DNA of 16,869 nucleotides from contig JAHJSF010000033.1 in NCBI GenBank assembly GCA_018830405.1, positions 1-16,869 of the forward strand, read 5' to 3'. The notes under the pieces are model-generated. The model saw only the letters and a program-made list of their open reading frames with translations. It searched no databases and was not told the origin of the DNA. The position numbers were made by a program, and so were the translations under genes. The number at the start of each line of letters is the position of its first letter. Position 1 is the first letter of the stretch. This document shows, piece after piece, positions 1 to 16,869 of the stretch. Source of the stretch: Nitrospinota bacterium (GTDB lineage Bacteria > Nitrospinota > Nitrospinia > UBA9942 > JAHJSF01).

Positions 1-462
1 CCTTCCTATATTCTTTATAATATCTGTAGAGGAATGGTCTTTAGGGTCGCCGGTTATCACTACTCTTCCCCCGTAAGATTTTACCGTTTCTGCTTCTGGA
101 ACTGTGTCGGCGGTATAATCGGTTCCCTTAGCCTGTATGTTCGGCTTTAGGGTCATGATTACGTTCGAGACATTCGGTTCGTCGAATATGGTTACATAGT
201 CAACGCATTCAAGGGCACTTATTATTTCAGCCCTCTCTTGCTCGTTTGTTACTGGGCGTCCCTTCCCCTTCAGTTGGCGGGCAGAATTGTCGCTGTTTAT
301 GGCCACGACCAAGATATCTCCCAGGTCTTTGGCCTCCTGCAAGTAACGGATATGCCCTACATGCATGACGTCAAAACATCCATTGGCCAGGACCACCTTC
401 TTTCTCTGATTGGTTAATAGACTTTTAAGGTGGGCTAATGTCTTTATTTTAGAGGTGGTCAC
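1..462 (-). CDS. rfaE2: D-glycero-beta-D-manno-heptose 1-phosphate adenylyltransferase (partial, 3' end beyond window)
   Basis: Transfers AMP from ATP to heptose-1-phosphate to give ADP-heptose, the donor for LPS inner core, in the cytoplasm. I translated the minus strand from position 462. The frame stays open for 154 codons to the window edge. Residues 27-37 read NGCFDVMHVGH, the nucleotidyltransferase signature with its HxGH motif, followed by INSD (about 58-61) and a late SSTDII segment typical of the C-terminus, so only a few residues should be missing. The start is GTG at 460-462, because no ATG lies upstream of the signature. It overlaps the end of the kinase gene by 14 nt, so the two are translationally linked. 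In E. coli the two activities are fused in HldE (kinase then transferase); here the same order is kept as separate genes. Confidence 0.9.
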   Translation of the reverse strand, partial: MTTSKIKTLAHLKSLLTNQRKKVVLANGCFDVMHVGHIRYLQEAKDLGDILVVAINSDNSARQLKGKGRPVTNEQERAEIISALECVDYVTIFDEPNVSNVIMTLKPNIQAKGTDYTADTVPEAETVKSYGGRVVITGDPKDHSSTDIIKNIGR

Positions 463-1513
463 TATTTATCGCCCCCCTTATTTCATCCATATTAGCGGTG
501 GCGGTTCCGCTCTTCATGACAACAACGCTCCCGGCATAGTTGGCTATTCTGGTCGCCTCTTCCATGGTTGCCCCGGCGGCCAGGGACATAGTGAAGGTGC
601 TGATAACGGTATCTCCGGCCCCGGTGACGTCGGCCACCTCATCCTTACCGCATATACCAAGCTTAAACTCCTTCTTACCTTTCTGGAGTAGAAGCATACC
701 ATCCTTCCCTCTGGTGATTAGGAGGGCCTTAGAGTTTAGTTTGGTTAAGACCTTCTTGCCTGTTTCGACTATATTTTTATCACTCAGGATTACCCCTGTG
801 GCCCACTCCATTTCTTCCGTGTTTGGGGTGGCGGCGGTAATGTTTTTATACTTGAGCATATCGTAACGGGAATCGACTATTACCGGTGTTTTGCTCCCCT
901 TGGCGAAATTATTTATGGCCCTTCTGATATAGGGGGTAATGGTGCCGAGTCCATAATCTGAGATAATGATTGCATCTGCTACTTTGGCAGATTTGATAAA
1001 TATGGCGGCCAATCTCTTTTCTACCTTCTTCGGCAGGTTCCCTCTATTGTCACGGTCTATCCGTATCATCTGCTGTTTGGTGGTGTTGTGACCGCCGGCC
1101 ATTATTCTCGTCTTGACCGGAGTCGTCAGCCCAGCTTCAACCAGTATGGTATCGGAGACAATCTCCCCCTTCCCCATTACGGCCAGGAGTTTTTTCCCTG
1201 TTTCATCTTCCCCTACCACCCCTATGGGGATTACATGGCCGGATAGGGAGTGAATATTATTTATGGCGTTGGCGGCACAGCCTGGTTGGATGACAGTCGA
1301 GTCGTATCTCAGTATGGCCACGGGGGCCTCTCTGGATATCCTCGAAGTAATCCCGAAGATATATTCATCGGCCACTATGTCGCCGATTACAAGTATCTTT
1401 CTGCCTGGGAAGGCCTTAACTATAACCAGTAGTCTCTTTTTAATATTTGTATTATTCAAAGCGTCATTTAAGATTAATTGTTTGGTTTTTCTAAATACAG
1501 TGCTTAATTGCAT
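449..1513 (-). CDS. rfaE1: D-glycero-beta-D-manno-heptose-7-phosphate kinase (PfkB/ribokinase family)
   Basis: Phosphorylates heptose-7-phosphate at C1, the step before the adenylyltransferase encoded immediately downstream. The ribokinase fold shows as KILVIGDIVADEYIFG near the N-terminus, a PGCAANAINN segment in the sugar/lid region and the PfkB signature DVTGAGDT, with the catalytic Asp and anion-hole glycines, near the C-terminus. The start is uncertain. The frame is open up to a TTG at 1651, with ATGs at 1573 and 1513 and a TTG at 1459; none has a good ribosome-binding site. Family members begin 10-20 residues before the ILVIGD strand, so 1459 (336 aa) fits length best, 1513 (354 aa) is the nearest ATG, and the 1651 form would add about 60 residues that resemble no kinase. 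Function is confident; the first 20 residues are not. Confidence 0.88.
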   Translation of the reverse strand: MQLSTVFRKTKQLILNDALNNTNIKKRLLVIVKAFPGRKILVIGDIVADEYIFGITSRISREAPVAILRYDSTVIQPGCAANAINNIHSLSGHVIPIGVVGEDETGKKLLAVMGKGEIVSDTILVEAGLTTPVKTRIMAGGHNTTKQQMIRIDRDNRGNLPKKVEKRLAAIFIKSAKVADAIIISDYGLGTITPYIRRAINNFAKGSKTPVIVDSRYDMLKYKNITAATPNTEEMEWATGVILSDKNIVETGKKVLTKLNSKALLITRGKDGMLLLQKGKKEFKLGICGKDEVADVTGAGDTVISTFTMSLAAGATMEEATRIANYAGSVVVMKSGTATANMDEIRGAINSDHL

Positions 1514-1704
1514 AAATCTTGCTGTAGTCGACCGGCCTTTGACGCGCCCGGCTTTGTCATCAATCCTCGCCATAGGCCCAGCTATGGCTGTGGTTGTCTT
1601 CGCTCCGGCCACGCCAAATTCTCGGTCTTGGTACGACGCAGAGTTATGCAACTAAACACTAGGGTCGTCACATTATATTACCTGTGGCGTGTATTGTGAA
1701 GTAA
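1514..1704. other. Non-coding leader/intergenic stretch upstream of rfaE1
   Basis: The kinase frame stays open here, but the encoded residues look non-proteinaceous for this family. On DNA level the stretch holds a perfect 7-bp stem GCCATAG/CTATGGC (1569-1575 with 1582-1588, loop GCCCAG) and a near-direct repeat CCGGCCTTTGAC / CCGGCTTTGTC (about 1530-1557). If the promoter at 1672-1700 is used, it forms a 5' leader of about 150 nt. It may be another dispersed-repeat copy or an RNA leader. I recognise no riboswitch class. Confidence 0.35.
1672..1700 (-). promoter_or_regulatory. Sigma-70-type promoter for rfaE1-rfaE2
   Basis: On the minus strand a TTCACA -35 box (1695-1700, five of six consensus bases) is followed by a 17-nt spacer and a perfect TATAAT -10 box (1672-1677). 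Transcription would start near 1665 and run into the heptose genes. The -35 box ends 4 nt short of the inverted-repeat element. Confidence 0.6.
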
Positions 1705-9439: not shown

Positions 9440-9859
9440 ATGCCGGAAGACTCTTTCGAACCTCTGATTATTACCTTCTGCTGCAATTGGTGTTCCTACG
9501 CCGGGGCAGATTTGGCCGGCACCTCAAGGATTCAATATCCTGCCTCTATCCGTATTATCCGTGTTATGTGCTCCGGAATGGTTCACCCAAATGTTGTTAT
9601 CGATACCCTTACCAAGGGGGCCGACGCTGTTATTATCTGCGGCTGTCACCCTGGTGATTGCCACTATCTCGAAGGAAATCTTAAGGCCGAGATGCGTCGT
9701 GAGGGGATTGAGCTATTGCTTGATGACCTTGGGCTAGAGCAGGAGCGTTTTCGCCTAGAGTGGGTCTCAGCCTCTGAGGGGCAGAAATTTGCCGCCCTTA
9801 TGACTGAAATGACAGACAAGGTTAAGGCCCTCGGTCCAAGTCCATATAGCACCAGTTGA
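9440..9859 (+). CDS. mvhD: Hydrogenase iron-sulfur subunit MvhD
   Basis: Small [2Fe-2S] protein that passes electrons between the hydrogenase (MvhAG) and HdrA in the Mvh-Hdr complex. It has 139 residues, typical of the family. Conserved cysteines are visible: Cys14, Cys15 and Cys18 in FCCNWCSYAGAD, Cys44 in RVMCSGMV, and Cys67, Cys69 and Cys74 in CGCHPGDC. GGAGCGG just upstream is a good ribosome-binding site for the ATG. It is the first gene of the hydrogenase-Hdr run. The next gene is separated from it by a 107-bp repeat element. In some genomes MvhD is fused to HdrA; here it is separate, as in methanogens. Confidence 0.93.
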   Translation: MPEDSFEPLIITFCCNWCSYAGADLAGTSRIQYPASIRIIRVMCSGMVHPNVVIDTLTKGADAVIICGCHPGDCHYLEGNLKAEMRREGIELLLDDLGLEQERFRLEWVSASEGQKFAALMTEMTDKVKALGPSPYSTS

Positions 9860-9885
9860 TTATGTACGACGACATAAATAGAACA

Positions 9886-9992
9886 GCATTCAGAGCATCA
9901 GAACAAAGCAGACCGAGGCGTATTTTCAGCATACGCCGCAACAACGAGCTGAGAAGCAACGAAGGTATGCGAAGTTAGGACGCTCTGTATAT
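9886..9992 (-). repeat. Dispersed palindromic repeat, copy 2 (inverted relative to copy 1)
   Basis: The reverse complement of 9886-9992 aligns along its length with 1705-1833, minus about 22 nt. The right end keeps ATATACAGAGCG; the other end is degraded (GCTCTGAATGC). The central hairpin is GGCGTAT/ATACGCC (9917-9923 with 9931-9937). Relative to copy 1's GACGTAT/ATACGTC an A-T pair has become G-C, with both strands changed together. It sits in the mvhD to small-gene gap of the hydrogenase operon. Confidence 0.75.
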
Positions 9993-10007
9993 TGAAAGGA
10001 AGTTATA

Positions 10008-10202
10008 GTGTCTCCTTTGACTTATAGGCAAGAGGCTGGGAAGAAGATAATGTGGGATGGGATTGTCTATAATAGTGCCGAGGAGGCTGATGGTAAGGCG
10101 GAAGGGTATCGATCTCACGGGTTTGAGGTCTATAGGTTTAGTGAAGAGGGAAAACATTTTGTATATACGAGACGGGTTTCCCAAGAAGTTCCCAGTGTGT
10201 AA
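10008..10202 (+). CDS. Small protein of unknown function in the hydrogenase operon
   Basis: A 64-residue soluble, charged protein that I do not recognise. The GTG start at 10008 is supported by AAAGGAAG about 7 nt upstream; the next possible start, ATG at 10050, has no such site and would remove the first 14 residues. It has no Cys, so it is not an iron-sulfur protein, and no membrane helix or signal peptide. The pattern is strand (KIMWDGIVYNS), helix (AEEADGKAEGYRSHG), two strands (FEVYRF, KHFVYTRRV), like a compact alpha/beta fold. It lies between mvhD and mvhG on the same strand, so it may be an accessory or assembly partner of the hydrogenase; that is inferred from position only. Confidence 0.65.
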   Translation: MSPLTYRQEAGKKIMWDGIVYNSAEEADGKAEGYRSHGFEVYRFSEEGKHFVYTRRVSQEVPSV

Positions 10203-10265
10203 AAGGCAGTTCAGTTTTTTGTGTGGGTAAACGTTAAACCACGATGATAGAGAAGGAGGCGCATT

Positions 10266-11216
10266 ATGGCAGTTAGAGTAGCGGAAGAATGGCTTAATAT
10301 TTGCGGTGGGTGTGAGGTTAGTATCTTGGACATCGGTGACCAGCTCCTCGATATTCTCCCGGCCCTTGAGTTTGTTCATATGCCTGTCCTTATGGACAGT
10401 AAATATTATGGACAGCTTGGTGAGAGGGATCATATGGAGATTCCCGAGGCGGATGTCGGAATTATCTCCGGAGGGATTAGGAATGATGAGGAAAAAAAGA
10501 TTGCCGAGGAGATGCGTAAAAAGTGTAAGACACTGATTACGCTCGGTTCATGTGCCTGTTTCGGTGGCATACCGGCCATGGCCAATATGTGGAGTGTTGA
10601 TGAGTTGACTGACAAGGTTTATCGACACTGCTCTACAACTGAATCAGCCGCCACCCCAACCGAAAATATTCCTGGACTCCTTGATAGGGTCTATGCGGTG
10701 GATGAGGTAGTTGATGTAGATGTCACCATTCCCGGTTGCCCCCCATCACCGGATATGATTGTTGAGGCCCTGACCTGCCTCTTGGAGGGGAAACCATTCA
10801 TCCTTCCCGAGAAGAGTGTCTGTGACGAATGCCCAGCCAAGAGGGAGAAGAAGGCCGCCGGAGGGGATATAAAGAGACCTCTTCAGCCTCTCGATATAAA
10901 GGTTGGAGAACCGTGGGAGAATACCAGGTGTTTCATGGAGCAGGGGGTGCTTTGCATTGGGCCTGTCACCAGGGCCGGTTGTTCCGGGACCACTGTTGAG
11001 GAAGGGGAGGAGAAGGTTCCTCGTTGTATCAAGGGTTATATGCCTTGCCGGGGCTGTTTCGGCCCCATCCGTAAAGGGGCCAATCCTTTGGTTGACATGG
11101 TAAGTTCTATATCATCTATAGGGCTTGACGTAAAACAGGTTGTCGATAGGAGGGCCCTGCTCAATAGATATATAGGCGGTCAAAACAGACTGAAACCTTT
11201 ACCAGTAAGAAATTAG
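10266..11216 (+). CDS. mvhG: F420-non-reducing [NiFe]-hydrogenase small subunit MvhG
   Basis: Electron-transfer subunit of a group 3c-type cytoplasmic hydrogenase; carries electrons from the Ni-Fe site to MvhD. There is no twin-arginine signal, as expected for a cytoplasmic enzyme. Cys13 and Cys16 in NICGGCE, Cys96 or Cys98 in LGSCACFGG and Cys158 in IPGCPPSPD form the proximal [4Fe-4S] site. A second set (Cys186, Cys189, Cys222, Cys230, Cys239, Cys254, Cys261, Cys264) can supply two more clusters. Length of 316 aa fits the family. The ATG has a strong AGAAGGAGG site. It is followed 9 nt later by the large subunit. Confidence 0.95.
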   Translation: MAVRVAEEWLNICGGCEVSILDIGDQLLDILPALEFVHMPVLMDSKYYGQLGERDHMEIPEADVGIISGGIRNDEEKKIAEEMRKKCKTLITLGSCACFGGIPAMANMWSVDELTDKVYRHCSTTESAATPTENIPGLLDRVYAVDEVVDVDVTIPGCPPSPDMIVEALTCLLEGKPFILPEKSVCDECPAKREKKAAGGDIKRPLQPLDIKVGEPWENTRCFMEQGVLCIGPVTRAGCSGTTVEEGEEKVPRCIKGYMPCRGCFGPIRKGANPLVDMVSSISSIGLDVKQVVDRRALLNRYIGGQNRLKPLPVRN

Positions 11217-11225
11217 GAGAAAAGC

Positions 11226-12671
11226 ATGTCAAAGACAATAACAATTGCACCGGTTAGTCGTATAGAGGGTCATGCCAAGGTAACCATACAGCTGAATGAT
11301 GCTGGGGATGTGGCTGATACCTTTGTTAATGTTGTTGAGTTGCGCGGGTTTGAGAAATTCTGTATAGGGCGTCCGGCTGAGGAGATGCCCCGTATAACCA
11401 CGAGTATCTGCGGAGTTTGTCCTTGGTCACACCATCTAGCCTCGGCCAAGGCTGCGGATGCCGTCTTCGGAGTAACACCTCCTCCGGCCGGAAAGAAGCT
11501 GAGAGAACTTTGTAACAGTATGGCCTACTGTGAAGAGCATATCCTCCACTTTTTCTTCCTGGCAGGGGCCGACTTTGTAATGGGCCCGGACGCCAACTAT
11601 AAGGTTAGAAACGTATTCGGTATTGCTGCGGCCAACCCTGAGATAGGGAAGATGGTTGTTCATAACCGTCATTTGGCCGGCAAGATGCTCCATATAGTTT
11701 CCGGTAAGTCTATCCACCCGGTTACTGCGGTTCCGGGAGGATTCAGCAAACCTATGACCGAAGGGGAGAGGGTTAAACTTCTCGCTATGGCTGAGGAACT
11801 GTTGGAGTTCGCCAAGTTTTCCATGAAGTGGGCCAAAGAATCGGTATTCCCCGCCTATCTTGAGGCCATAAAGACAATTGGTGTTATCAATACCGGCTTT
11901 ATGGGGACGGTCGATGATAAGGGGGGCCTTAACCTCTATGACGGTAAACTGAGACTGATGAAGGCGGACGGCACATTCATCGATTTCCCGATAGAGGATT
12001 ACGAGAAGCATATCAGCGAGAAGGTTCTTCCTTGGACATTCCTTAAATTCCCATATGCCAAGTCATGGAACGAGGGCTTTTCTATGGATTTGGATGCCCC
12101 GAAGGGTATTTACAGAACAAATACCTTGGCCAGAATGAATGTCTGTGATCATATCCCGACACCTTTGGCACAGAAAGAGCTTGAGGAGTTTAGGGCCGCC
12201 TTTGGACGACCTGCCCAATTGACCCTGTTGTATAATTATGCCAGGCTGATTGAGCTTCTCTACAATGCGGAGAATATTATTCAGCTCTTGAATGATAAGG
12301 ATATTACCAGTACCGATACCTGGACACCGGTGAAGCCAAGGGCTGCCCGTGGCATAGCCCATGTTGAGGCCCCTCGTGGGACACTCATACATGATTATGA
12401 AACGGATGCCGATGGTATGATTACCAATGTCAACCTTATAGTCGGGACAACCCACAATAATGCCCCAATCAATATGTCGGTCAAACAGGCCGCCACTACC
12501 TTGATAAAGGGTGGGGTATATGACGAGGGTATTCTGAATAAGGTCGAGATGGCTATTAGAGCCTATGATCCATGTCTATCATGTGCCACACACAACCTTG
12601 ACGGAACTCTTCCTGTGAAGGTTGATATTGTGGATGCCTCAGGCAAGACAATTCAGACCCTAAAAAATTAA
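11226..12671 (+). CDS. mvhA: F420-non-reducing [NiFe]-hydrogenase large (catalytic) subunit MvhA
   Basis: Holds the Ni-Fe(CN)2CO site that splits or forms H2. Residues 7-15 (IAPVSRIEG) start the family signature. The N-terminal metal motif is SICGVCPWSHH (Cys62, Cys65) and the C-terminal one DPCLSCATH (Cys450, Cys453, His456), giving all four Ni/Fe ligands as ordinary Cys codons, with no selenocysteine. After His456 there is a 25-residue tail, the part removed by a maturation protease after nickel insertion; that protease is encoded next. Length is 481 aa. The ATG has AGGAGA upstream. With MvhG and MvhD this is a group 3c-like enzyme, although a bacterial group 3c/3d-related subtype cannot be decided by eye. 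Confidence 0.95.
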   Translation: MSKTITIAPVSRIEGHAKVTIQLNDAGDVADTFVNVVELRGFEKFCIGRPAEEMPRITTSICGVCPWSHHLASAKAADAVFGVTPPPAGKKLRELCNSMAYCEEHILHFFFLAGADFVMGPDANYKVRNVFGIAAANPEIGKMVVHNRHLAGKMLHIVSGKSIHPVTAVPGGFSKPMTEGERVKLLAMAEELLEFAKFSMKWAKESVFPAYLEAIKTIGVINTGFMGTVDDKGGLNLYDGKLRLMKADGTFIDFPIEDYEKHISEKVLPWTFLKFPYAKSWNEGFSMDLDAPKGIYRTNTLARMNVCDHIPTPLAQKELEEFRAAFGRPAQLTLLYNYARLIELLYNAENIIQLLNDKDITSTDTWTPVKPRAARGIAHVEAPRGTLIHDYETDADGMITNVNLIVGTTHNNAPINMSVKQAATTLIKGGVYDEGILNKVEMAIRAYDPCLSCATHNLDGTLPVKVDIVDASGKTIQTLKN

Positions 12672-12730
12672 GGTTAATCCCTGTTTTGTGTGGAACCTTG
12701 AGGTGATAAGAAGAAACTTTTTAAGTTACC

Positions 12731-12780
12731 CTCCACTTGCTCCCCTCCCCCTTGAGGGGGTAGGGTTAGGGTGGGGGTGT
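12731..12780 (+). repeat. G/C-tract palindromic repeat between mvhA and the protease gene
   Basis: The 119-nt gap contains a stem CCCCCT/AGGGGG (12747-12752 with 12755-12760, very tight loop) flanked by pyrimidine-rich and purine-rich arms, then GGGTTAGGGTGGGGGTG. The upper arm is C/T and the lower arm G/T-rich, so the whole block can fold back. Similar C-tract palindromes occur as dispersed repeats in many bacterial genomes (recollection, not a search). It is not followed by a T-run, so it is not a classic terminator. Its end lies 10 nt before the protease ATG. Confidence 0.55.
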
Positions 12781-12790
12781 AGAGGGATTT

Positions 12791-13282
12791 ATGGATTGGT
12801 CTCCTGATTTTTGCGAGAAGAGGATTATTGTTCTCGGTTGCGGCAATATCCTGTTTGGGGACGACGGCTTCGGTCCTGCGGTAATTGAACATATAGATGA
12901 TAACTATTCCGTTCCTGATGATACCTGCTTTGTTGATGCAGGTACATCGGTTCGGGAGATACTCTTTGACCTTATCTTGGTTGAGAAGAAGCCGGAGAGA
13001 GTTATAGTTGTTGATGCGGCTGACAAGGGGAGGGTGCCCGGGGAGATCTATACCATCCCCTTAGAGGGTATGCCGGAAAAAAAGACAGATGTCTTCTCCC
13101 TCCATATCGCCCCTTCGGTTAACCTACTGAAGGAGCTACAAGATTTCTGCGGGATAGAGGTAATTGTTTTGGTCTGCCAGCCTGCCAGCCTGCCTGAAGA
13201 GGTTTCCCCCGGGTTATCCAATGTTGTGAGAGAGAAGATTCCTGAGATTAGCAGACTTATATTTGAGAAATATTTAGGCTGA
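12791..13282 (+). CDS. [NiFe]-hydrogenase maturation protease (HycI/HyaD/FrcD family)
   Basis: Endopeptidase that clips the C-terminal tail of the hydrogenase large subunit once nickel is in place, letting the active site close. The N-terminal motif VLGCGNILFGDDGFGPAV (14-31) contains the acidic nickel-sensing residue; VVDAAD (Asp75) and SLHIAP (His105) match the second acidic and the His ligand of HybD-type proteases. At 163 aa it has normal length. AGAGGGA ahead of the ATG acts as ribosome-binding site and directly abuts the G-rich repeat. Position right after mvhA, whose product has a 25-residue tail after DPCLSCATH, identifies the substrate. hdrC starts 5 nt after its stop. Confidence 0.93.
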   Translation: MDWSPDFCEKRIIVLGCGNILFGDDGFGPAVIEHIDDNYSVPDDTCFVDAGTSVREILFDLILVEKKPERVIVVDAADKGRVPGEIYTIPLEGMPEKKTDVFSLHIAPSVNLLKELQDFCGIEVIVLVCQPASLPEEVSPGLSNVVREKIPEISRLIFEKYLG

Positions 13283-13287
13283 GAAAA

Positions 13288-13842
13288 ATGAACTTAACGC
13301 CAACATTATCATTTGCCGAGGAGATTAGAAAACGAAGCGGTGAGGATGTCAACCTCTGCTATCAGTGCGGACGTTGTTCGGCCGGTTGTCCTACCAGCTA
13401 CATTATGGATGTTGTTCCCCACAGACTGATTCACAGCATAAGGTTGGGCAGAGAAGAGTTTATCCTTGGCAGTAAAACAATGTGGCTCTGCGCCTCGTGC
13501 GAGACCTGTAGTACCAGATGCCCCAGAGATATAGATATTGCCAAGATTATGGATAACCTTAAGATTCTTTCGGTTGAGAAGGGGATTAAAACCCCTGTTC
13601 CTGAGGTTTCCGCTTTCTACTCTTCCGCCCTTAACAGCATCAGAAGGTTTGGAAGAATCCATGAACTTAGTATGGTAACTGAGATTAAGTTAAAGACTCA
13701 TCAGTTTATGCGGGATTTAAAACTTGGTCTCCAGATGATGAGAATGGGAAAGATAAAGCTTCTCCCTGAAACAAACGCAACAAGAAGGGGCATTGTTCGA
13801 GATATATTTGCCAATGTCAAAAAGAGGGAAAAGGGGCAATAG
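13288..13842 (+). CDS. hdrC: Heterodisulfide reductase subunit C, [4Fe-4S] ferredoxin-like
   Basis: Electron-wire subunit between HdrA and HdrB. Two classic CxxCxxCxxxCP motifs are visible: Cys24, 27, 30, 34 (LCYQCGRCSAGCP) and Cys68, 71, 74, 78 (LCASCETCSTRCP), binding two [4Fe-4S] clusters. The C-terminal half (about 90-184) is helical and basic and gives the usual length of 184 aa. There is no membrane segment, so this is the soluble HdrC, not the membrane HdrE type. It lies between the protease gene and hdrB, with only 1 nt before the hdrB start. Confidence 0.95.
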   Translation: MNLTPTLSFAEEIRKRSGEDVNLCYQCGRCSAGCPTSYIMDVVPHRLIHSIRLGREEFILGSKTMWLCASCETCSTRCPRDIDIAKIMDNLKILSVEKGIKTPVPEVSAFYSSALNSIRRFGRIHELSMVTEIKLKTHQFMRDLKLGLQMMRMGKIKLLPETNATRRGIVRDIFANVKKREKGQ

Positions 13843-13843
13843 T

Positions 13844-14695
13844 ATGAAATACGCTTATTATCCTGGTTGTTCGCTGCATTCAACGGGTGCTGAGTATGAT
13901 GAGTCCTTCAGGGCAATATGCAATAAGATGGAAATTACGCTTGATGAGATACCTGACTGGGTCTGCTGCGGAACCCTGCCGGCCCACAGTTCCTCAAAGC
14001 TTCTCTCTGTTTCTCTTCCGATAAAAAACCTGGCCTTGGCCGAGGCGATGGGACACCGAGAAGTTGTTGTCCCGTGTGCTGCCTGTTATTCCCGTTTCAA
14101 GAAGGCTCTCTACGAAACGGAGCACGACGGGGAATTGGCTACCGAGGTAAACGGAATAATAGAGGATGAGTATAAAGGGAGTGTTAATGTTATTCACCCC
14201 TTAGAGGCCTTTGATGGAATTGATCACAACATTATAAAGAAGCATATAGTCAGGGATATATCTAATCTAAAGGTGGTCTGCTATTACGGCTGCCTCCTCA
14301 CGCGCCCCCCCAAGGTAATGAATTTTGATAACAGCGAATATCCGATGATTATGGATAAGATAGCCGAGACCGCCGGGGCGACCGTTCTTGATTGGTCTTA
14401 CAAAACAGACTGCTGCGGCGGAAGCATCGCCCTGAGCGAGACCGATATGGTTCTGGAGCTTTGTCACTATATCCTGGAAGAGGCGGACGCAGTTGGGGCG
14501 GATGCTATTATTGTGGCCTGTCCCCTCTGCCATTCAAATCTGGATAATCGCCAACCGGAGATAGATGCAAAATATTATATAGAGCATAAGGTTCCTATAC
14601 TCTATTTTAGCCAACTTATTGGCCTCGCCTTCGGGATGAAGCCCGAAGAATTGGGGCTTCACAAGCATTTCATTAGCGCCGATTCCCTCCTATAA
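13844..14695 (+). CDS. hdrB: Heterodisulfide reductase subunit B (CCG domain)
   Basis: Catalytic subunit that reduces a disulfide-type substrate at two non-cubane [4Fe-4S] clusters. Both CCG motifs are intact: Cys9-Cys41-Cys42-Cys78-Cys81 and Cys150-Cys190-Cys191-Cys226-Cys229. The spacings (31, 35 and 39, 34 residues) match the CX31-39CCX35-36CXXC rule, the last one residue short. The start is the ATG at 13844 just before YAYYPGCS, with AAGGGG upstream; the frame is open further left to 13793, but that part overlaps hdrC and would displace the conserved N-terminal motif. Length is 283 aa. In methanogens the substrate is CoM-S-S-CoB; in bacteria it is usually unknown. Confidence 0.95.
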   Translation: MKYAYYPGCSLHSTGAEYDESFRAICNKMEITLDEIPDWVCCGTLPAHSSSKLLSVSLPIKNLALAEAMGHREVVVPCAACYSRFKKALYETEHDGELATEVNGIIEDEYKGSVNVIHPLEAFDGIDHNIIKKHIVRDISNLKVVCYYGCLLTRPPKVMNFDNSEYPMIMDKIAETAGATVLDWSYKTDCCGGSIALSETDMVLELCHYILEEADAVGADAIIVACPLCHSNLDNRQPEIDAKYYIEHKVPILYFSQLIGLAFGMKPEELGLHKHFISADSLL

Positions 14696-14716
14696 AAGGA
14701 GAGATATTTGAATATT

Positions 14717-14748
14717 TCCCCCTTTAGAAAAGGGGGATGAAGGGGGAT
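14717..14748 (+). repeat. C5T3/A3G5 hairpin with tandem GGGGGAT
   Basis: Perfect 9-bp stem TCCCCCTTT/AAAGGGGGA (14717-14725 with 14729-14737, loop AGA), followed by AGGGGGAT repeated with a GA spacer (14731-14738 and 14741-14748). No T-run follows. It resembles widespread intergenic C-tract repeats (recollection). It begins 22 nt after the hdrB stop. Confidence 0.6.
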
Positions 14749-14767
14749 TTGAAAGGTTTTGGTTTCC

Positions 14768-14799
14768 TCTCCCTTTCTTGCTCGTCCAAGAAAGGGAGA
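14768..14799. repeat. Perfect 13-bp hairpin in the hdrB-hdrA gap
   Basis: TCTCCCTTTCTTG (14768-14780) pairs perfectly with CAAGAAAGGGAGA (14787-14799) around loop CTCGTC. It lacks a 3' T-tract, so it is unlikely to terminate intrinsically; it could protect the hdrB 3' end after processing. Confidence 0.65.
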
Positions 14800-14808
14800 A
14801 AGAAGACG

Positions 14809-14947
14809 CCGCCCGCCCATTTTTTTAACGGTTTGAAATGACGGTTGGTTTTGGAGCCTAAAGAACTCGCAAGGCTACGCCTTGCTCAGACAGGCTTTAG
14901 GCTTATTCCGCAACCAACCTATTTCAACCCTAAAAATGAGAGGGCGG
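14809..14947. repeat. 139-bp imperfect palindrome (MITE/REP-like) before hdrA
   Basis: Nested inverted blocks share one centre near 14877: CCGCCC (14809-14814) with GGGCGG (14942-14947), TTGAAAT (14833-14839) with ATTTCAA (14921-14927), GGTTGGTT (14843-14850) with AACCAACC (14912-14919), GCCTAAAG (14856-14863) with CTTTAGGC (14895-14902), and the core GCAAGGC/GCCTTGC (14869-14875 with 14879-14885, loop TAC). No gene lies inside. A full-length transcript would form one long stem. Together with the two hairpins to its left it accounts for most of the 298-nt hdrB-hdrA gap. Confidence 0.75.
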
Positions 14948-14993
14948 ATACAGAAAGATTTATGTAAATGATCGCTATATAAGAGAAATCGAA

Positions 14994-16869
14994 ATGAGTG
15001 ATAGTAAGGATAAGATAGGGTCGGTCATGGTTGTAGGGGGCGGGATAGGAGGGATGCAGGCCTCCCTCGATCTGGCCGAATCTGGATACAAGGTATATCT
15101 AGTTGAGAGGAACAGTTCCATAGGAGGAACAATGGCCCAGCTCGACAAGACCTTCCCCACCAATGATTGCGCTATGTGTACTCTGGCTCCCCGTCTGATT
15201 GATGTGGGACAGCACCCGGATATCATCAAGATTACCAATGCCAATATTGATAAGATCGAAGGGGAGCCTGGTAATTTTAAGGTTACCGTCAAGAGAAGGG
15301 CGACTTATGTCGATACCGATAAATGCACCGGATGCAGCTCCTGTATAGAAAAATGTCCTATCAAGGTGGACAGCGAGTTTGACCTTGAGCTGATTAAGAG
15401 GAATGCCATATATCGCCGTTATCCTCAGGCTGTTCCTAATACCTTTTCTATAGATAAACAGGGAGTCTCTCCTTGCCGTGTGGCTTGTCCGGCCGGGGTA
15501 AATGCCCACGCCTATGTGGCCTTGATTGCCCAAAGAAGATTTGAAGATGCCCTTGAGGTAGTTAGAAGGGTTTTGCCCTTCCCCTCAATATGCGGCCGGT
15601 TGTGTCATCACCCCTGTGAGGGGGAGTGTAACCGTAAGGATGTTGATGAGGCGGTCAATATAAGGGTTCTCAAGTCTTTTATCGCCGATAAGGCAAGGAG
15701 CACAGGCGAAACCCCTCCTGAGATTATCAAACCTGGGAAGGATAAGAGGATAGCCATAGTCGGGGCTGGTCCGGCCGGATTGACCTGCGCAGCCAATCTA
15801 CTTGAAAGAGGATATCAGGTTACCGTCTATGAAGCCTCTTCTAAGGCGGGGGGTATGATAACCTCATCTATCCCCGAATATCGCCTATCATCCGAAGTGG
15901 CCAATTACGATATAGACAGGCTACTGGCCAAGGGGATAGAAATTGTAACAGGAAAAAGGATAGGCCATGATATCCCCCTATCCGAGCTTAAAGATAAATA
16001 TGATGCCCTCTTTGTAGCCACAGGATATCAAAACCCGACCAAACTCCCCATTGAGGGGGTTGATACTCCCGGCGTATTCTACGGGCTCCCCTTCCTCAAG
16101 GATGTAAAAGGGAGGAAGCAATTGGAACACTTCGGCAAAGATGTTGTTGTCATAGGCGGAGGAAACGTGGCCATAGATACGGCCAGAACTGCTCTAAGGA
16201 TGGGGGCCAAGGATGTCAAGATTGTCTGCCTGGAGACGAGAGATTTAGAACATAAGGACAGGATGCCGGCCCACTCGTGGGAGATAGAGGAGGCCGAGGA
16301 AGAGGGGGTTCTGGTACACGGTTCCTCCGGCCCCCAAAAGATTCTCTCCAAGGGGGGGAAGGTATCAGGTGTAGAGGTAGCCGAATGTGTCTCGGTCTAC
16401 AAGATAGACAGTGATGGGAAGAAGGTCTTTGCTCCTAAGTTTGCCGATGGGGCTACCAAGATGATATTTGCCGATACGATCATTATCTCAATCGGTCAAA
16501 GTGCCGACCTGACCGGATTTGAAGAACTGGAGAAAGGGGAGAGGGGGATGATTAAAACGGATTCCCTTACCCTTGAAACGAGCGTTAAAGGGATATTTGC
16601 CGGAGGGGATATTGTTCGAGGGCCAGCCTCGGTTATAGAGGCGGTTGATAATGGTAATGAGGCGGCCACCTCGATAGACAGATATCTGAGTGGTCTCGAC
16701 CTTAGAGAGGGGAGGGGAGAAAGGCCTGAAATAGCCGGACTTCCCGAGAGGAAGATAGAGAAGAAGAAACGCCGCAATCCCGACAAACTCGACCCTGAGA
16801 AGAGATCAGCTTCCTTCGATGAAGTTGAGCTTGGTTTCAGTGAGGATGAGGCCGTGGCTGAGGCAGAGC
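14994..16869 (+). CDS. hdrA: Heterodisulfide reductase subunit A with inserted NfnB/GltD-like NAD(P)H-flavin module (partial, 3' end beyond window)
   Basis: Flavin subunit expected to bifurcate electrons between ferredoxin and the HdrBC branch. I read 625 codons with no stop. Domains: FAD-binding GGGIGG (15-20); the HdrA-type Cys59-Ala-Met-Cys62 followed by TLAPRLIDVGQHPDI; a ferredoxin motif Cys111, 114, 117, 121 (CTGCSSCIEKCP); then Cys161/165 (SPCRVACP) and Cys200, 204, 208, 212 (CGRLCHHPCEGEC), the cluster domain of glutamate-synthase small subunit and NfnB; a second FAD site VGAGPAGL (256-263); and an NAD(P) site GGGNVAID (388-395), with a late AGGDIV. Methanogen HdrA lacks this second flavoprotein part, so this subunit probably also exchanges electrons with NAD(P)H. 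The ATG at 14994 has only a weak AAGAGA site. The charged region from about residue 585 looks like a linker back to HdrA sequence. Confidence 0.93.
   Translation, partial: MSDSKDKIGSVMVVGGGIGGMQASLDLAESGYKVYLVERNSSIGGTMAQLDKTFPTNDCAMCTLAPRLIDVGQHPDIIKITNANIDKIEGEPGNFKVTVKRRATYVDTDKCTGCSSCIEKCPIKVDSEFDLELIKRNAIYRRYPQAVPNTFSIDKQGVSPCRVACPAGVNAHAYVALIAQRRFEDALEVVRRVLPFPSICGRLCHHPCEGECNRKDVDEAVNIRVLKSFIADKARSTGETPPEIIKPGKDKRIAIVGAGPAGLTCAANLLERGYQVTVYEASSKAGGMITSSIPEYRLSSEVANYDIDRLLAKGIEIVTGKRIGHDIPLSELKDKYDALFVATGYQNPTKLPIEGVDTPGVFYGLPFLKDVKGRKQLEHFGKDVVVIGGGNVAIDTARTALRMGAKDVKIVCLETRDLEHKDRMPAHSWEIEEAEEEGVLVHGSSGPQKILSKGGKVSGVEVAECVSVYKIDSDGKKVFAPKFADGATKMIFADTIIISIGQSADLTGFEELEKGERGMIKTDSLTLETSVKGIFAGGDIVRGPASVIEAVDNGNEAATSIDRYLSGLDLREGRGERPEIAGLPERKIEKKKRRNPDKLDPEKRSASFDEVELGFSEDEAVAEAE

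Follow-up and report, generated by a model that had tools for sequence, protein, structure and literature searches.

An Mvh-Hdr gene cluster of a Nitrospinota bacterium encodes an HdrA with a GltD/NfnB insert that may take NAD(H) in place of ferredoxin

HdrA proteins interrupted by a flavin- and nicotinamide-binding module have been described before. In anaerobic methanotrophic archaea of the ANME-1 group, HdrA9-11 carry NfnB-like insertions of ~500 residues in their ferredoxin domain (PMC9012536), and HdrAs named type III have been reported to cluster with mvhADG in Bathyarchaeota (PMC12054007). For these it was argued, with the help of modelling, that the GltD domain possibly blocks ferredoxin and that NADH could then serve as the mid-potential donor or acceptor (PMC12054007). 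The HdrA of Moorella consists of an extra module interrupted by GltD and then a second HdrA (PMC9430772). Here we describe a cluster of mvh and hdr genes, including an hdrA of this fused type, in contig JAHJSF010000033.1 of a Nitrospinota bacterium. The window, by which we mean the whole stretch of DNA analysed, is the entire contig (C183; 16,869 bp) of a metagenome-assembled genome (MAG) of 1.42 Mb in 185 contigs that is 87% complete. Since HdrA-GltD/NfnB fusions, one of them with mvhADG, are already published, the window is a further example and not a new kind.

The window encodes mvhA, mvhG, mvhD, hdrA, hdrB and hdrC together on the forward strand, as an MvhADG-HdrABC complex requires, and chains of the methanogen HdrABC-MvhAGD complex (5odc, 8rvu, 9sfi) were among the solved-structure matches of all six proteins. 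The first gene, mvhD (9440..9859), encodes the [2Fe-2S] linker between hydrogenase and HdrA (Pfam FlpD, 1.9e-52), whose closest solved chains are the MvhD subunits of methanogen Hdr complexes (3.9e-49). The group 3c-like small subunit of a [NiFe] hydrogenase is encoded by mvhG (10266..11216; 5odc_E, 1.5e-58), and the large subunit by mvhA (11226..12671), in which the metal-ligand motifs CGVC and DPCLSC are kept. VhuA was the closest NCBIfam model for MvhA (4.6e-127, under that model's cut-off), and among solved structures 5odc_F matched at 1.9e-109, with the NiFe hydrogenase 7t2r slightly better as the top match. Downstream, hdrC (13288..13842) encodes the soluble subunit with two [4Fe-4S] clusters (solved methanogen chain, 6.3e-16), and hdrB (13844..14695, ATG start at 13844) a protein with two CCG domains, the sites of noncubane clusters, both above cut-off; HdrB matched a solved methanogen Hdr chain at 1.1e-43. 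The last gene is hdrA, of which the 5' 625 codons (14994..16869) are present before it runs off the contig; the missing 3' end was sought elsewhere in the MAG, with short ferredoxin-like matches only. Gene calls together with profile and structure matches bore out the gene list and coordinates of an earlier sequence-only reading (mvhD-mvhG-mvhA, hdrC-hdrB and an hdrA with an NfnB/GltD module), which had overlooked two members of the run, a hycI/frhD-type hydrogenase maturation protease (12791..13282, forward strand; TIGR00072 above cut-off) and an open reading frame (ORF) of 64 codons. Most intergenic gaps are short, at 9, 119, 5 and 1 bp. The spacing widens to 406 bp after mvhD and to 298 bp before hdrA, and with these two larger gaps a single transcript is plausible.

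The part of HdrA seen in the window starts with the FAD domain, at about residue 144-146 of the methanogen HdrA: its residues 10-156 match HdrA just past the N-terminal domain, and residues 11-165 align with 5odc_A (2e-49). The N-terminal domain is absent from this part, and inspection of the three frames of 14500-15100 found none encoded upstream of hdrA. The N-terminal half of the FAD domain is followed by the first CxxCxxCxxxCP motif of the inserted ferredoxin domain and then by the GltD/NfnB module, recognized by profile and solved-structure matches at about 15462-16697 of the forward strand (HdrA residues ~157-568). The insert thus splits the inserted ferredoxin domain between its two cluster motifs, the arrangement that defines type III HdrA. 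An AlphaFold model had a mean pLDDT of 83, with values below 50 for residues 103-123 and 138-156, where the ferredoxin domain is split, and the structures nearest to the model were NfnABC, StnC and NfnB; the model backs the fold of the insert, not its exact docking.

To place this protein among its relatives, 84,980 species genomes were scanned, yielding at least 586 matching stretches, of which at least 564 encode relatives. Locus-level analyses (L-numbers below) were made on the best 80 of these at least 564, a survey that may omit the window's own kin. In 62 of the 80 the HdrA ORF ends inside the locus, and 56 of these 62 exceed 1300 aa, mostly as tandem HdrAs of ~1,500 residues. One such tandem, L060, was compared with 5odc_A: its module 1 consists of the FAD N-half, a ferredoxin half, GltD, the other ferredoxin half and the FAD C-half, and its module 2 of the N-terminal domain, a FAD domain that has no ferredoxin domain inserted in it, and the C-terminal ferredoxin domain. 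The N-terminal domain is missing from module 1, which has Cys197, and module 2 shows the reverse, the lack of Cys there being judged by eye; this complementary pattern has been described for fused HdrAs, Moorella's included (PMC9012536). Residues E356 and K409, given in PMC9430772 as the signature of a bifurcating HdrA, were found in both HdrA modules of L058 and L060, and the equivalent region of the window HdrA lies beyond the contig end. In the window, the equivalent of Cys197 of the methanogen HdrA in the 5odc_A alignment is Cys62 (codon 15177..15179, forward strand), and this Cys is invariant in the alignment of relatives. Because Cys62 is present and the N-terminal domain absent, the window HdrA would need a partner, which the missing 3' part would most likely supply; and because complete relatives are mostly tandems of ~1,500 residues, that part probably contains a second HdrA module.

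Separately, we observed an in-frame UGA at the Cys197 equivalent (FPTNDCAMU) in 25 of the 80 relatives (L068, L073-L077, L079-L084, L087, L088, L099, L101-L103, L114-L117, L122, L126 and L133). It probably specifies selenocysteine, at the cluster ligand common to the two HdrA modules; HdrAs with selenocysteine are a familiar finding in sulfate reducers.

The insert retains its cluster cysteines and the Rossmann motifs for both FAD and NAD(P), so that, as far as sequence can tell, NAD(P)(H) is its likely redox partner. At the FAD-proximal cluster, StnC has a lysine (Lys170) and a non-bifurcating FAD, and NfnB has a glutamate and a bifurcating FAD. The window has Lys227 (codon 15672..15674, forward strand) at the position of StnC Lys170, and thus lacks the Glu ligand of bifurcating NfnB. 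The same position is Lys in 54, Glu in 1 and Arg in 1 of the 56 relatives matched by pattern, the other 24 of the 80 being unmatched. R201 of NfnB, which touches FAD N5, has its counterpart in the window in Arg297; since StnC has the same Arg, it does not discriminate a bifurcating from a non-bifurcating insert. With a Stn-type Lys rather than the Nfn Glu at the FAD-proximal cluster, the insert is more likely to serve as a simple gate for NAD(P)H than as another site of bifurcation. After the second strand of its NAD(P) Rossmann fold (407-411) the insert has CLE, a hint of NAD(H), where the aligned solved enzymes have YRR, and Glu414 (codon 16233..16235, forward strand) aligns with the second Arg of these NADPH enzymes. 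Among the 80 relatives the site is CLE-like in 49, YRR in 22 and unread by the pattern in 9; on inspection, 7 of the 9 had GGGS, GGGI or GGGD (CLE or CVE in 2, YRR in 5), and the display of the remaining 2 did not include the site. The CLE and YRR labels cluster on an 82-row tree, where CLE changes 8 times, compared with 25.6 times when shuffled.

The MAG offers some context for such an enzyme. Its only [NiFe] large subunit found is this MvhA, and we found no FeFe hydrogenase, no AcsB and no Complex1_51K protein (Rnf/NuoF/HydB) in the 87% complete MAG; one further CCG protein is present besides HdrB. Acetogenesis was considered and rejected, there being no AcsB in the MAG. A Moorella-type MetVF-Hdr methylenetetrahydrofolate reductase was likewise rejected, with no metVF in the cluster and the sole MetF of the MAG on contig C50, without MetV alongside, flanked by an epimerase-like gene and a response-regulator gene.

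We favour, at about an even chance, a soluble cytoplasmic MvhADG-HdrABC complex that uses NAD(H) in place of free ferredoxin. In such a complex MvhAG would exchange electrons with H2 and pass them through MvhD to HdrA, whose FAD would split or merge them. One branch would lead by way of HdrC to HdrB, with its two noncubane clusters, and on to a substrate of high potential such as a disulfide. The other would cross the split ferredoxin domain and reach the GltD module, whose FAD would act as a plain two-electron/one-electron gate, as in StnC, and exchange hydride with NAD(P)(H), of which NAD(H) is the more probable. In this organism, with no other hydrogenase found, a likely direction would be the oxidation of NADH with formation of H2, powered by the substrate of HdrB, or else the opposite. 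Several observations weigh against this picture. The near relatives L059, L061 and L063 have HdrAs of 892-913 aa (versus ~1490) without a fused second module, and given these short proteins a split HdrA form is possible for the window copy. The bifurcation residues and the MvhD contact fall in the missing 3' part of hdrA, the dinucleotide motif GGGNVA favours NADP(H) by the GXGXXG/GXGXXA rule of PMC12054007, the absences from the MAG are weak because it is 87% complete, and we found no biochemistry for a type III HdrA with MvhADG in the literature.

The sequence-only reading had proposed NAD(P)H as another donor or acceptor, which proved sound given the retained FAD/NAD(P) motifs and cluster cysteines; loss of NAD(P)-binding residues, which it had named as a refutation, was looked for by alignment and no loss was found. 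It had also proposed three possible electron outlets. Because the insert interrupts the ferredoxin-docking domain, an argument also made in PMC12054007, NAD(H) is more likely to take the place of ferredoxin than to be an additional outlet, and that proposal is the less likely one. The idea of an Mvh-Hdr-type complex itself is supported. The reading had missed the probable second HdrA module, the Stn-like Lys and the published HdrA-NfnB fusions, including the one with mvhADG. A four-way complex, in which H2, ferredoxin, NAD(P)(H) and the HdrB substrate all react and ferredoxin docks on the split domain or elsewhere, nevertheless deserves a minority share of belief. Relatives retain the two halves of the inserted ferredoxin domain, the window retains the first cluster motif, and a tandem HdrA could offer more than one electron exit; set against this are the place of the insert within the docking domain, which the modelling of PMC12054007 suggests may block ferredoxin, and the second HdrA module of L060, which is without an inserted ferredoxin domain.

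We consider it comparably unlikely that the complex is of the same build and specific for NADP(H), like NfnB, GltD and StnC. GGGNVA ends in Ala, the structural homologues bind NADPH and the MvhADG-linked Acidobacterial relatives have YRR, but neither arginine of YRR is present in the window (C-L-E), and the acidic form occurs in 49 of 80 relatives and is clustered on the tree. Since GGGNVA points in the opposite direction to CLE, we hold a preference of the insert for NAD(H) to be only roughly twice as probable as one for NADP(H). A GXGXXG motif in the GltD domain, equated with NAD, has been reported for nine archaeal type III HdrAs and may refer to either nucleotide site; in the window the FAD site is GAGPAG and the NAD(P) site GGGNVA. 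The chances are slim that the flavin of the GltD module bifurcates as in Nfn, so that the complex would have two sites of bifurcation, as suggested for ANME-1 HdrA9-11 (PMC9012536): the overall NfnB fold and Arg297 would fit, but Lys replaces the Glu cluster ligand of NfnB as in the non-bifurcating StnC, which also has the Arg, and no NfnA-like gene is evident in the window. Finally, the contig stops inside hdrA and the gap before hdrA carries sequence 78% alike to L057 elsewhere in the MAG, which could indicate a chimeric contig or a decaying gene; such a non-functional or mis-assembled remnant is very hard to credit, as frames and cofactor residues are all intact and hydrogenase genes beside a GltD-type hdrA are seen independently in other genomes.

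The two halves of the complex appear to differ in origin. Among the 77 genomes of the phylum examined, the next MvhA, in G011, is 48% identical; that genome has an HdrA with both an N-terminal domain and a GltD insert near hdrC-hdrB, and its mvhG-mvhA lie on the opposite strand. Identities to the Acidobacteria loci L086, L089 and L092 are 69-72% for MvhD, 59-60% for MvhG and 68-77% for MvhA, whereas the window HdrA is 58% identical to that of Planctomycetota L058 against ~46% for the Acidobacterial HdrAs. With Mvh identities to Acidobacteria far exceeding the 48% within the phylum, and HdrA closer to Planctomycetota L058 than to Acidobacteria, these figures suggest that the hydrogenase and HdrA modules were exchanged separately.

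The 64-aa ORF (10008..10202, forward strand; GTG start), unannotated and of unassigned function, lies between mvhD and mvhG. Homologues with 40% identity are encoded in Acidobacteria, with WDG and YTRR invariant; those of L089 and L092 occupy the same gap, and that of L085 precedes hdrC-hdrA; no Pfam family scored above cut-off and a plasmid search gave no match. In the non-coding gap 14696-14993, a 186-bp stretch is the part alike to L057, which lies on another contig of the MAG, and it is accompanied by a short inverted repeat; the gap sequence may be a dispersed repeat. At the other end of the window (1-1651, reverse strand), an adenylyltransferase-like and a sugar-kinase-like ORF form separate adjoining frames, as if an HldE-type bifunctional enzyme were split.

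If the function proposed here is true, the cluster encodes a soluble, ferredoxin-free enzyme whose Hdr core forms a direct link between H2 and NAD(H), in a MAG in which no other hydrogenase was found. The published proposal that NADH stands in for ferredoxin in type III HdrA is thereby turned into residue-level predictions, namely Lys227 for a non-bifurcating insert, Glu414 for NAD over NADP and Cys62 for pairing with a second HdrA module. The HdrA-GltD fusion itself is common across bacteria and archaea, as the number of related stretches attests; what the window adds are the likely tandem HdrA, the Stn-type Lys, the CLE site, the sole hydrogenase found in the MAG and the 64-residue ORF conserved in Acidobacteria. 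That all of this comes together, in an Mvh-Hdr complex which has a tandem HdrA, is specific for NAD(H), performs ferredoxin-free bifurcation of NADH to H2 and the HdrB substrate, is the only hydrogen enzyme of the organism and has a small subunit encoded between mvhD and mvhG, we regard as doubtful.

Compared with the methanogen HdrABC-MvhAGD complex (5odc), the window has the same six subunit types, a soluble HdrC, an HdrB with two CCG domains, the MvhD linker and the Cys197 equivalent, but its HdrA lacks the N-terminal domain and has the GltD insert in the ferredoxin domain, and CoM-S-S-CoB is not expected as the partner of HdrB in a bacterium. It shares with type III HdrA and HdrA9-11 a GltD/NfnB insert in the inserted ferredoxin domain, and with the Bathyarchaeota cases mvhADG too; it differs in being bacterial, in having no N-terminal domain in the part seen, in its CLE site and in kin that are mostly tandem HdrAs. 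Its full-length relatives resemble the HdrA of Moorella thermoacetica (proposed MetVF-HdrABC-MvhD complex, PMC9430772) in having a GltD-interrupted thioredoxin reductase/ferredoxin module and then a second HdrA, whereas the window HdrA is paired with a [NiFe] hydrogenase. With StnC and NfnB it shares the fold of the insert, and with StnC the Lys, but the insert is embedded in HdrA and its NAD(P) site differs. As in the window, the GltD-type HdrA adjoins MvhD-MvhG-MvhA in Acidobacteria L086, L089 and L092, the protease being present also in L086 and L089, but there the NAD(P) site is YRR. In L089 (8838-9992) and L085 (4142-5302), the stretch directly upstream of the GltD-type HdrA encodes an HdrC-like domain joined to a helix-rich, hydrophobic one, neither locus has an HdrB match, and in L089 mvhDGA and the protease follow that HdrA; the L089 version may be membrane-bound, and the HdrC fusion of both loci possibly marks a quinone-linked version of the complex.

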